From Lachnospiraceae bacterium (lineage in GTDB: Bacteria > Bacillota > Clostridia > Lachnospirales > Lachnospiraceae), in assembly GCA_017622845.1 (NCBI GenBank), contig JAGAQJ010000069.1:38848-102847 (forward strand): a stretch of 64,000 nucleotides of DNA, read 5' to 3'. Of this stretch, positions 275 through 61,735 are shown in pieces (position 1 is the first letter of the stretch; the number at the start of each line of letters is the position of its first letter). The notes beneath the pieces were generated by a model. It ran no database searches and was not told where the DNA came from. It saw only the letters and a list, made by a program, of their open reading frames with translations. The position numbers were made by a program, and so were the translations under genes.

Positions 275-318
275 AAGGCTGGATTGTTGCTTTGGGAAAG
301 TAACAGTTCAGCCTTTTA
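275..318 (+). terminator. Intrinsic terminator of gltA, made of repeat-family sequence
   Basis: Two 19-base arms (275-293 and 297-315) pair along their whole length if three G-U pairs are allowed, around a GGG loop, and are followed by TTTT. The right arm carries GTAACAGTTCAGCC, the same core found at the ends of the repeats at 6516, 41282 and 57292. It seems to act as the gltA terminator while also being the left end of the compound repeat. Confidence 0.7.
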
Positions 319-654
319 TGCATTCGTATCCGGACGAAAGCGGCAGATAGTATCCCTCCGGCTGCCATTGGTTCCGAATGGGAATTTCCTAACACGATGA
401 ATCAAGGCTTTCTAATGAGGACGGAGCCGGCTCGAGTCGGCATCCATGCCTCCGTCTCGCCTAAATTTGCTTCCGTGCAAATTTACTCCTGGGTATTTAC
501 CATCGTATAAGGAAATATCACCATTCTCCACCGGGCAGCCTGCAGGATACTATCTGCCGTTTTCTGTTCATTGAAACCATAAAGCTGGACAGTTGTCAGT
601 ACACAGAAGGTCGGCAGTCTTGATTAAAATAATCCATAAGGCTGAACTGCTGCC
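300..654 (+). repeat. Compound palindromic repeat element, copy 1 (non-coding)
   Basis: The left end GTAACAGTTCAGCCTT (300-315) and the right end AAGGCTGAACTGC (638-650) are inverted repeats. Inside lies a ~250-base module A (330-580), bounded by its own inverted repeats (CGGCAGATAGTATCC near 341 and GGATACTATCTGCCG near 545). A shorter module B remnant follows (about 587-617). Module A contains nested hairpins: AAATTTGC/GCAAATTT near 465-485, GACGGAG/CTCCGTC near 420-456, and a long imperfect stem joining about 376-400 with 503-525. The reverse complement of 41532-41779 aligns with module A over its full length with only scattered differences, including the loops. No ORF of significance is present. 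This looks like a MITE-like or structured-RNA repeat. Confidence 0.8.
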
Positions 655-6107: not shown

Positions 6108-6512
6108 ATGAGAAAGAACAGCGTTAAAAATACCCGTGTGAACGGGGAAGTTCATCGTGTTCTTGCAGAGATTATCAGAAGTGAGATTAAGGACCCGAGG
6201 ATTAATCCGATGACCTCGGTGGTTGCTGTAGAGGTGGCGCCTGATCTGAAAACCTGTAAAGCGTGGATTAGCGTCCTTGGCAATGAGGACTCGCAGCAGG
6301 ATACACTGGCAGGTCTGAAAAGCGCCGAGGGTTATATCAGAAGTCTTCTGGCGAAAAAGATTAATCTGAGAAATACGCCGGAGCTTCGGTTTATCCTTGA
6401 TCAGTCCATTGCTTATGGCGTGTCGATGTCCAAAAAGATTGATGACATCAATCGTGCAGACGATGAAAGACACGTGGACGGCATTGGAAGCGGCGAGAAC
6501 TTAGACGAATGA
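6108..6512 (+). CDS. rbfA: 30S ribosome-binding factor RbfA
   Basis: A 134-residue RbfA with the KH-like fold. Visible family features are RVNGEVHRVLAEIIRSEIKDPRI at the N terminus, VVAVEVAPDLKTCKAWISV in the middle and RNTPELRFILDQSIAYGVSMSKKID near residues 85-109, where the conserved RxxPxLxFxxD segment lies. RbfA acts in late maturation of 16S rRNA and the 30S subunit. It starts at the ATG that abuts the infB stop and is translationally coupled to it. It is the last gene before a repeat hairpin (6516-6567) and an intrinsic terminator (6589-6627), so it probably ends the rimP operon transcript. Confidence 0.94.
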   Translation: MRKNSVKNTRVNGEVHRVLAEIIRSEIKDPRINPMTSVVAVEVAPDLKTCKAWISVLGNEDSQQDTLAGLKSAEGYIRSLLAKKINLRNTPELRFILDQSIAYGVSMSKKIDDINRADDERHVDGIGSGENLDE

Positions 6513-6515
6513 AAA

Positions 6516-6567
6516 GCAACAGTTCAGCCTGAGTCCTGCAACAGGAAGCCGGAGGCTGAACTGTTAC
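6516..6567 (+). repeat. Minimal copy of the GTAACAGTTCAGCC repeat (hairpin)
   Basis: GCAACAGTTCAGCCT and AGGCTGAACTGTTAC form a perfect 13-bp stem (6518-6530 with 6553-6565). The loop contains a second small hairpin, TCCTG-CAA-CAGGA (6534-6546). Both ends equal the two ends of the compound repeats at 300-654 and 41282-41812, as though all interior sequence had been lost. It starts four bases after the rbfA stop. Confidence 0.75.
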
Positions 6568-41243: not shown

Positions 41244-41281
41244 TTGTGATAAGACTCAACTATGATGAGATTCCTGTGTTG

Positions 41282-41812
41282 ATACAGTTCAGCCATGCAG
41301 TTTATTTCAAACAGGACGAAGGACAGCGGTCATATACCTTGACAGGCAGTTGGGCTACGAATGCGAATTTTCTAATGGGTGATGTCAAGCCTTCTCTGCC
41401 AGCCTGTCCCGGCATATGACTGCCGTCCTTCTGTGTATGGATAACTGTATAATATCCATTTAAGTTTTCGTGGTGTTCACAGTTTCAGGTTTTTAATACA
41501 ACAAAGCCTGTTTATTATCGTTCACAATTTTATGATTTCAATGAGCAGAAAACGGCAGATAGTATCCCGTAGACTGCCCGGCGAAGAATGGTGATATTTC
41601 CTTATACGATGATAAATATACAGGAGTAAATTTGCATGGAGGCAAATTTAGGCGAGACGGAGGCATGGATGCCGACTCGAGCCGGCTCCGTCCTCATTAG
41701 AAAACCTTCCTCATCGTATTAGGAAATTCCCATTCGTAACCACGCAGTTATAGGGATACTATCTGCCGTTTTCGTCCGGTTGTCAATAAATATATGAAGG
41801 CTTAACTGTTAC
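41282..41812 (-). repeat. Compound palindromic repeat element, copy 2 (inverted relative to copy 1)
   Basis: On the minus strand the order is GGTAACAGTTAAGCCTT (41797-41813), module A (41779-41532), a 78-base spacer, module B (41453-41284) and a GGCTGAACTGTATC end (41294-41281). This is the same order as copy 1 at 300-654. Module A aligns over its whole ~250 bases with copy 1. Module B is longer here and has its own imperfect inverted ends GAAGGACAGCGGTCATAT (about 41315) and ATATGACTGCCGTCCTTC (about 41417). The 721-base gap between spoIVB and potA (41244-41964) consists mostly of this element. No ORF inside it looks real. Confidence 0.8.
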
Positions 41813-56434: not shown

Positions 56435-57283
56435 ATGGCTGAGCTTGGCAGAAAATTTTTATACAGAATATTTTGCGTGCTTGCGTTGATTGTTACATTA
56501 TATCTGCTGGTGGATTTATATCTGAGTCATACGCTTGATGTTAAAGTGATGGTGCTGTTCGGCATTATTTTTTCCGTTATCCTGTTTGGGCTGCTTGACT
56601 GGGGGCGCAATTATGCGGCTTTGAGACGTCAGGAGCAGGAGCTGATGGTCTACAAGCTGTACATAAAGCCTATGGAAGAACTTACGAAGGATATCAGGGC
56701 ACGCCAGCATGAATTTGACAATCATATGAATGCCATATTAAATATGCATGTGACAATTCATGATTATGATGAGCTGGTAAAGGCACAATCAGCTTATTGT
56801 AAAGATATTTATGAGGATAAATCCCGCTGCAGCCCGACGCTTTTGAGGATATCCGACAAGATTCTTGCAGGCTTTTTATACAGCAAGATTATCAGCGCTC
56901 CGGGATATATTGATATTGACATACAGGTGTTAAATCAGGAAATAGTGACACTCGTTTCAGAACATGCACTTGTGGATATTATCGGGACGCTTACGGATAA
57001 CGCTTTTGAGGCGGCGACGCCGGAGCGCAATAAGGTGGAAATGGTGCTGGATGCAAGAGAGGACAAGCTGATATTTATGATAAAAAATCAGGTGGAGCAG
57101 CTTACGATGGGAGAGATATCCCACTTTTTTGAGAAGGGATTTACTACAAAAGGAAATCGTGAGGGCAGAGGTTTAGGGCTTTATCAGGCAAATCAGATTG
57201 CAAAGCGCCATAACGGGGAGATTGCAGTGGAGCTGCTGGAGCGGGAGGGCGGACAGGAAATCTGTTTTCGGGTGGAGATTTAA
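56435..57283 (+). CDS. GHKL-family sensor histidine kinase (short, two membrane helices)
   Basis: A 282-residue kinase with only two N-terminal membrane helices (about 11-30 and 37-55), unlike the six or seven of AgrC. A linker helix leads to the phosphoacceptor region RARQHEFDNHMNAI (His near 92). The GHKL catalytic core has the N box LTDNAFEAATP and the G box NREGRGLGLYQANQIAKRHNG. It phosphorylates the LytTR regulator encoded just upstream. No extracellular domain and no AgrD-like peptide gene is present nearby, so the stimulus is unknown. It might sense the membrane or a partner such as the SPFH protein, but that is conjecture. It is followed by a solo repeat end at 57292. Confidence 0.9.
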   Translation: MAELGRKFLYRIFCVLALIVTLYLLVDLYLSHTLDVKVMVLFGIIFSVILFGLLDWGRNYAALRRQEQELMVYKLYIKPMEELTKDIRARQHEFDNHMNAILNMHVTIHDYDELVKAQSAYCKDIYEDKSRCSPTLLRISDKILAGFLYSKIISAPGYIDIDIQVLNQEIVTLVSEHALVDIIGTLTDNAFEAATPERNKVEMVLDAREDKLIFMIKNQVEQLTMGEISHFFEKGFTTKGNREGRGLGLYQANQIAKRHNGEIAVELLEREGGQEICFRVEI

Positions 57284-57291
57284 ACTCCCGC

Positions 57292-57332
57292 CCTTCGTCC
57301 TGCTTGAAATAAACTGTAAGTCTGAACTGTTG
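57292..57332 (+). repeat. Solo end of the compound repeat (module B end)
   Basis: CCTTCGTCCTG, TTGAAATAAACTG and CTGAACTGT occur here in the same order and spacing as in the reverse complement of 41284-41317 (copy 2), with only a handful of substitutions. The rest of the element is missing. It starts nine bases after the histidine kinase stop. Confidence 0.7.
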
Positions 57333-57434
57333 CTTAAAAGATAATAAATTTTGAAAAAAAGAGTGCTTTTTTGTTAAATATTGGTTATACTGTAAGAGCT
57401 ATGAAACATCAGGCAGGAGAGGAGGCACACAGAC

Positions 57435-61359: not shown

Positions 61360-61652
61360 AGAATAAAACTGGTGACCAAGAGGAGTACATGTTTTGAGGA
61401 GACTCACAGAGAGCTGCAGATGGTGGGATTGCAGCAGTTGATAAGATGTGGAATGGACTTGGGAAGGTGGGAGCAAAGAGTTGTTTTACACAGCTTTAGT
61501 AATGCCCAACGGGATTTCCGCCCGTTATCAAGGGAAAGCGCATGATGGTGCGTGTGTAAAGAGGGTATATTTTTATATGCCAAATTAGGTGGTACCGCAG
61601 AAGTTTCAGAGCTTTTGTCCTAGTAGAGATATTAGGACAAAAGCTTTTTTTA
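61360..61652 (+). promoter_or_regulatory. T-box riboswitch (tRNA-Trp sensing) upstream of trpE
   Basis: The leader carries a Stem I with the AGAGAGC element (61408-61414) and the distal ATGGTGGGA loop, and the T-box sequence AGGTGGTACCGC (61587-61598). A large intrinsic terminator follows, with a stem of AGCTTTTGTCCTA (61610-61622) and 61633-61645, then seven T. The likely specifier codon is TGG (61449-61451), before GAC and TTGGG, consistent with tryptophan and with trpEG downstream. When tRNA-Trp is uncharged its acceptor end pairs with the TGGT of the T-box and the antiterminator forms. The specifier assignment is by inspection, without folding. Confidence 0.88.
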
Positions 61653-61735
61653 ATGCATAGACCATGACGTACACAAGCACCCAAAGGAAGATGCTGGCAG
61701 AGCTGATGACAGATAAGTATAAGGAGGATGGGATT

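Follow-up and report, generated by a model that had tools for sequence, protein, structure and literature searches.

What is the highly folded, non-coding compound repeat that occurs twice, in opposite orientation, in a 64,000-nucleotide stretch of a Lachnospiraceae genome (GenBank assembly GCA_017622845.1, contig JAGAQJ010000069.1, positions 38,848–102,847; hereafter the window), and does it act as DNA or as RNA? An earlier reading made from the letters alone (the sequence-only reading) had placed the copies at 300–654 and 41282–41812, divided each into a module A and a module B, and proposed a mobile element resembling a miniature inverted-repeat transposable element (MITE) with conserved RNA structure. 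The two copies, their orientation, the ends described for them and their nested inverted repeats are borne out, at positions 300–653 and 41281–41812, and the proposed mobile element with conserved structure is supported by the number of copies, by compensatory base-pair changes and by target-site duplications. We show here that the element is a MITE and that it carries RNA of the Rfam family TwoAYGGAY (RF01731). Neither window copy contains an open reading frame (ORF) of at least 100 amino acids.

Module A of both copies belongs to TwoAYGGAY, scoring 96.5 bits in copy 1 and 105.2 bits in copy 2 against an Rfam gathering score of 43. The module A hairpins are far more stable than shuffled sequences (0 of 200 shuffles equalled them), and these scores together with fold z values of −8.0 and −9.3 exclude chance for both copies. 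The suggestion of a conserved structured RNA thus stands, with a known and covarying family to its name, except in its strand: the Rfam match puts the RNA on the minus strand in copy 1 and the plus strand in copy 2, opposite to the strand that had been read. The parts of the two copies are as follows.

300–653, minus strand (RNA sense): copy 1, a MITE that aligns to four intact twin elements as a deletion derivative, with terminal inverted repeats (TIRs) at 300–313 and 640–653 and with empty sites in relatives.
369–533, minus strand: TwoAYGGAY RNA core (RF01731) of copy 1, 96.5 bits, or 131.7 bits with our own covariance model, whose training set included both window copies.
341–559, minus strand: long hairpin of copy 1 with the RNA core as its cap (CGGCAGATAGTATCC ... 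GGATACTATCTGCCG); the interval 329–580 folds at −113.6 kcal/mol, z −8.0.
600–639: module B remnant of copy 1, by twin alignment the flanks of a lost second, divergent TwoAYGGAY.
41281–41812, plus strand (RNA sense): copy 2, a MITE and second deletion derivative by twin alignment, with TIRs at 41281–41294 and 41799–41812.
41579–41742, plus strand: TwoAYGGAY RNA core (RF01731) of copy 2, 105.2 bits, or 128.8 bits with the same self-trained model.
41543–41781, plus strand: long hairpin of copy 2 with the RNA core as its cap, −107.4 kcal/mol, z −9.25.
41311–41440, minus strand: module B of copy 2, a second TwoAYGGAY hairpin with an internal deletion, by twin alignment and an 11.4-bit remnant.

The nature of module B emerges from the family to which the copies belong. 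The host genome holds at least 102 RF01731 matches, 101 of them over the cut-off, a lower bound obtained by scoring 150 of 187 candidates. These RNAs form 85 clusters, of which 17 are head-to-head pairs; because 25 of the 85 come within 400 bp of the end of a contig, where the repeat probably broke the assembly, such pairs are undercounted. By their outer stems, 57 RNAs are of type A (CGGCAGATAGTATCC...), 41 of type B (CAGAAGG..GGCAG..) and 4 unassigned. An intact element runs from a left end through a type B RNA, a centre and a type A RNA on the opposite strand to a right end, and the ten twins for which both ends were found measure 550–652 bp, with ends GTAACAGTTCAGCC and GGCTGAACTGTTAC. The window copies, at 354 bp and 532 bp, keep the 14-bp inverted ends and align to four intact twins as deletion derivatives. 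Copy 1, read earlier as having lost much of module B, lacks nearly all of it; in copy 2 the RNA tip of module B is gone and the centre is different, and the covariance model recovers from this module a remnant at 41352–41401 on the minus strand (11.4 bits, E 2.1). Module B is therefore a degenerate second TwoAYGGAY, divergent from the first.

We assessed the fold in two sets of sequences. In a genus set of 31 (29 from sister species plus copies 1 and 2 of the window), both bases change in 29 of the 38 pairs, and 94.0% of cells are paired, compared with 67.0% in shuffled alignments and 33–46% when the alignment is slid. A distant set of 49 RNAs shows compensatory changes at 36 of 38 pairs and 92.9% of cells paired; it comprises 49 of the 50 loci matched by a model built from the genus set, with the alignment fitted to that model, one locus at E 0.46 and six matched only in part. 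The RNA fold is thus strongly supported by compensatory changes. Its core is also embedded in something larger: in all 170 copies folded (out of 181; 11 with short flanks were left out) the RNA caps a long hairpin in which at least 15 pairs join the flanks, all 29 sister-species and all 49 folded distant copies among them.

Wobble pairs bear on which strand acts. In alignment-based counts G-U pairs exceed their mirror image, A-C, by 28 to 12 in the genus set and 47 to 9 in the distant set, which favours the AYGGAY strand as the acting RNA. An ungapped count tells otherwise: A-C outnumbers G-U by 61 to 20 in the host genome and by 13 to 9 in the distant set, the sister set having 1 A-C and 5 G-U; this count overran the helix ends and was replaced by the alignment-based ones. 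Wobble is in any case scarce (28 of 1168 cells in the genus set, 47 of 1672 in the distant set), and this scarcity leaves room for a role at the DNA level.

The evidence for mobility comes from the ends and what flanks them. The end GTAACAGTTCAGCC, allowing up to two mismatches, matches the host genome 419 times, compared with 28 for a reversed-pattern control. For 34 of the 85 clusters both ends were recognized; in these, 165 of 272 letters agree in the 8 bp flanking the GTAA/TTAC tips, whereas shuffling gives 81.3 (z 10.6; this setting scored highest among 63 combinations of offset and length). The duplication is perfect in 7 of these 34 elements, and in 15 at least 6 of the 8 positions match (shuffled mean 0.75, maximum 5 in 2000). 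Short elements with the same ends and without the RNA also have perfect duplications, in three further cases and in one within the window. Being short, bounded by TIRs, free of any transposase gene, flanked by duplications of fixed length and present in many copies, the element is a MITE. Neither window copy has a clean duplication, each matching at 4 of 8 positions.

The locus of copy 1 can be compared directly with relatives, at 33 of 80 loci found through RimP, of which 22 align on both sides and 11 do not align upstream. Nine of the 33 are empty: 1–6 bases separate the upstream gene and the rimP leader, a gap that measures 418 bases in the window; the gap in the 13 other loci aligning on both sides holds 12–683 bases. 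The window insert is probably a nest of two elements, because a decayed end lies just outside copy 1. This end and the two other relics in the window are:

277–290: decayed right end of an older adjacent element (GGCTGGATTGTTGC), at most 3 mismatches to the TIR.
6516–6567: 52-bp mini-element with the same ends, without the RNA and with a perfect 8-bp duplication AATGAAAA, found by TIR search.
57283–57333: solo end, found by TIR search, comprising the right TIR and module B flank, with the rest of the element missing.

The mini-element begins 3 bases past an ORF ending at 6512. Elsewhere, five loci (L150, L151, L152, L154 and L156) hold MITEs of 135–151 bp that have the same 14-bp ends, other interiors and no TwoAYGGAY. 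A relative has independently gained a short element with these ends in the corresponding gap before rimP, just past the upstream stop codon (L237:2133–2255).

The RNA and the MITE are separable. MITE ends are plentiful in congeners without RNA matches (97 in genome G016, 86 in G032 and 65 in G033), whereas ten of 11 RNA-positive sister species have at most 8 and the other, G009, has 28. A MITE end lies within 80 nt of the RNA in 62 of 102 host RNAs and in none of the 29 sister-species or 50 distant ones. Across the phylum the RNA itself is often repeated: 35 of 51 positive genomes have at least two matches, with at most 6 candidates scored per genome, and a recount in 14 positive genomes, picked mostly among those with several matches, gave 9–55 each, so that all 14 are multicopy.

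What moves the element? The host assembly, which is 95.3% complete, has no match to the IS66 transposase (PF03050), the one transposase family searched for. IS66 is nonetheless the lead candidate because of the 8-bp duplications and GTAA tips: IS66 elements make 8-bp duplications and have ends starting GTAAGCG (PMC11946415), as compared with GTAACAG in the MITE. Matches to PF03050 occur in 12 of 36 genomes of relatives, and we checked 30 such loci for MITE-like ends. One of the 30 has a comparable tip pair, where 0.01 of 30 loci would be expected after shuffling. This locus, in a sister genome, holds a 1560-bp element (L134:326–1885) whose inverted ends agree at 39 of 40 bases and whose tips, GTTACAGTTCA, share 10 of 11 bases with the MITE tip; between them lies a decayed IS66 transposase fragment (24.3 bits; Pfam cut-off 23.1). 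The ends of this element diverge from those of the MITE past base 11 and it shows no 8-bp duplication of its own; it is possibly a relative of the mover. Together with the 8-bp duplications of the MITE, it makes a transposase of IS66 type, acting in trans, the most likely agent.

Two other routes were considered. TIR pairs 0.9–3.7 kb apart (L148, L149, L166 and L208) were examined as autonomous elements and rejected, since they enclose ordinary genes, identified by eye from their ORFs as a HAD phosphatase, ABC transporters, RlmN, a hydrolase and others. Carriage by phages or plasmids was set aside after searches found no phage match to the copy 2 core, no plasmid match to copy 2, and no match to the exact 24-base core pattern in genome or viral contig collections, a pattern search that may have left out near records.

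Each window copy has two AYGGA loops, the last base of loop 1 not being Y (ATGGAG and ACGGAA). GGA is present in both loops of all 49 aligned distant RNAs, and in the genus and window RNAs in 31 of 31 second loops and 23 of 31 first loops. Within the host genome, the loop positions A, G, G and A depart from consensus in 0–2% of 85 aligned copies, compared with 2–50% at the two N positions, and both motifs are kept in 79 of the 85 (aligned out of 102, omitting 13 type A cores of less than 155 nt and 4 cores without a type). The context is usually CA(N)GGANG, ANGGA or AGGA in loops closed by C-G, with a few loops closed otherwise. CA(N)GGANG and ANGGAN loops are the recognition target of CsrA/RsmE (PMC7652899, PMC3791407), and binding of CsrA by TwoAYGGAY was put forward by Gardner and Eldai in 2015, a proposal then awaiting validation (PMC4333381). 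Consistent with this, CsrA is present in 49 of 51 RNA-positive genomes of the phylum and 236 of 347 others (P = 4e-6), in about 39 of 41 positive genera and 157 of 226 others (P = 2e-4), and in 33 of the 34 positives that score over the Rfam cut-off. In sister species the number of CsrA matches reaches 8. The host csrA lies just upstream of an ORF of 719 amino acids resembling flagellin (L163:1008–3571).

Several observations pull in the other direction. Hairpin 1 lacks GGA in 8 of the 31 genus and window RNAs, and the loops were found with a model that itself scores AYGGAY. Seventeen of the 51 positives score below the Rfam cut-off and, because at most 6 candidates were scored per genome, some genomes counted as negative may be positive. 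FliW was counted in the positive genomes, where it occurs in 48 of the 51, and as it is as frequent there as CsrA the association may only reflect flagellar lineages. Among 60 relatives the difference in CsrA occurrence is small (12 of 12 positives and 39 of 48 others, P = 0.18), as is the excess of CsrA paralogues in positive sisters (means 3.0 versus 1.5, P = 0.12), and in the host genome the sole CsrA match is a divergent protein of 60 amino acids and a FliW search gave no match. With crude ORF calling, 22 of 31 single RNAs between tandem genes lie opposite to those genes, so that read-through would mostly yield the wrong strand, and no promoter stands out near the window copies. A promoter or terminator role for the element was likewise dropped: the surroundings of copy 1 have one terminator-like and no promoter-like site and those of copy 2 two promoter-like and no terminator-like sites, nothing clearly beyond shuffles near either copy. 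On balance, the predicted binding of TwoAYGGAY by CsrA has a roughly even chance of being right.

Much of this could also arise if the hairpins matter as DNA. The element would then be a REP-like palindromic selfish repeat whose folded single strand and loops are recognized by a transposase or DNA-binding protein, and the RNA fold would be a by-product, with quasi-palindrome correction keeping the arms near-perfect. The 15 or more flank-joining pairs of all 170 folded copies, the 9–55 matches in each of the 14 recounted genomes, the rarity of wobble in both alignments and the lack of any conspicuous promoter or shared gene orientation all sit well with such a repeat. However, pairing at the DNA level would not favour the G-U excess of the distant set (47 against 9 A-C), a GGA loop present twice fits an RNA–protein motif, and the TIR system accounts for mobility in the host genome, where it also moves elements that have no RNA. 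We regard a purely DNA-level role as possible but unlikely. It is less probable still that the RNA merely hitchhikes on an IS66-type MITE and has no further role. The 8-bp duplications and GTAA tips that the MITE has in common with IS66 (PMC11946415), the IS66 fragment (24.3 bits) enclosed by near-identical ends with tips GTTACAGTTCA in the sister genome, and the many MITE-ended elements without the RNA agree with passive carriage, whereas the absence of a PF03050 match in the host genome, the single locus in 30 with such tips, itself different past base 11 and without an 8-bp duplication, and the conservation of the RNA far beyond this MITE do not.

A cis-regulatory RNA, serving nearby genes as a leader or a 3′ element, is the type that Rfam 15 assigns to RF01731 (Cis-reg), yet Weinberg et al. 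(2010) marked TwoAYGGAY 'n', probably not cis-regulatory (PMC2864571), and its surroundings agree with them. Of the 60 clusters with enough flank to judge (out of 85), 40 lie between tandem genes, 11 between divergent and 8 between convergent genes, with 1 undetermined, and by the same crude ORF calls the RNA is on the strand of its tandem neighbours in only 9 of 31 single cases. We consider this explanation very improbable.

The explanation that we favour, and hold to be just on the probable side, is that the window contains two decayed copies of a MITE with twin RNAs, which are putative CsrA-bound decoys or sites, and that RNA and MITE were joined in this lineage. The element is a non-autonomous DNA transposon, of which both window copies are decayed members; its inverted ends measure 14 bp and its target duplications 8 bp, and it would be moved in trans, most likely by a transposase of IS66 type. 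The intact form carries two TwoAYGGAY RNAs in divergent orientation, and in each of them a long hairpin forks at its tip into two short ones whose loops have the form CA(N)GGANG. Such an RNA, when transcribed, could hold a CsrA dimer with its pair of GGA loops, and each would then be one of many dispersed decoys or binding sites for CsrA. In this lineage the RNA became joined to a MITE system whose ends abound in congeners without the RNA, and the MITE system presumably captured the RNA. A bolder extension seems to us doubtful: that in Clostridia TwoAYGGAY serves as a CsrA decoy that is mobile and genome-wide, with about 10–100 hairpins per genome each taking up one dimer, and that these hairpins make up a distributed sponge whose dose transposition changes.

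REP, BIME and other palindromic repeats of bacteria are dispersed, intergenic and often paired. The present element shares these traits, but its hairpin is much longer and ends in a conserved two-loop fork. With the Rfam description of TwoAYGGAY it agrees in sequence, fold and both loops, the window copies scoring well over the gathering score; the Rfam model covers only the tip of the longer hairpin seen here, and the twin layout, TIRs, copy number and mobility are not described in the literature examined. The small RNAs CsrB, RsmY and RsmZ, which bind CsrA/RsmA, likewise present GGA in CA(N)GGANG hairpin loops, and paired GGA loops are as expected because CsrA is dimeric. Those RNAs have many sites each, whereas TwoAYGGAY has two putative ones in about 10–100 dispersed copies per genome. 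As to IS66, the GTAA tips and 8-bp duplications are in common, and over the first 11 bases of its ends the decayed IS66-like element of the sister genome agrees with the MITE at 10, but the published ends differ after GTAA and the host genome gave no transposase match. The combination of an orphan structured RNA, a twin layout, MITE ends and about 100 copies was not found among the matches listed in the literature searched. The RNA family and the CsrA proposal are known; the mobility, high copy number, co-occurrence with CsrA and conservation of the loops within a genome are new.

Two further structures in the window are independent of the element. The leader before rimP contains a hairpin at 738–769 (GAGTGGACTTGCGAGTCCACTC, then Ts), which several other Lachnospiraceae have in nearly identical form and which is perhaps an attenuator of the rimP operon, and a T-box leader (RF00230, 113.6 bits) lies at 61363–61625, upstream of an ORF at 61664.

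An orphan RNA described in 2010, with no tested function in the literature examined, thus proves to sit, in multiple copies, at the tips of long hairpins in Clostridia; in one gut species it belongs to an element that transposes. Its 'Cis-reg' label may mislead annotation. Because its hosts nearly always have csrA, its loops are strongly kept and its copy number varies widely among sister species, the CsrA proposal of 2015 becomes directly testable. If the mobile decoy is real, it would be both a CsrA antagonist outside the Gammaproteobacteria and a case of transposition spreading a regulatory RNA.
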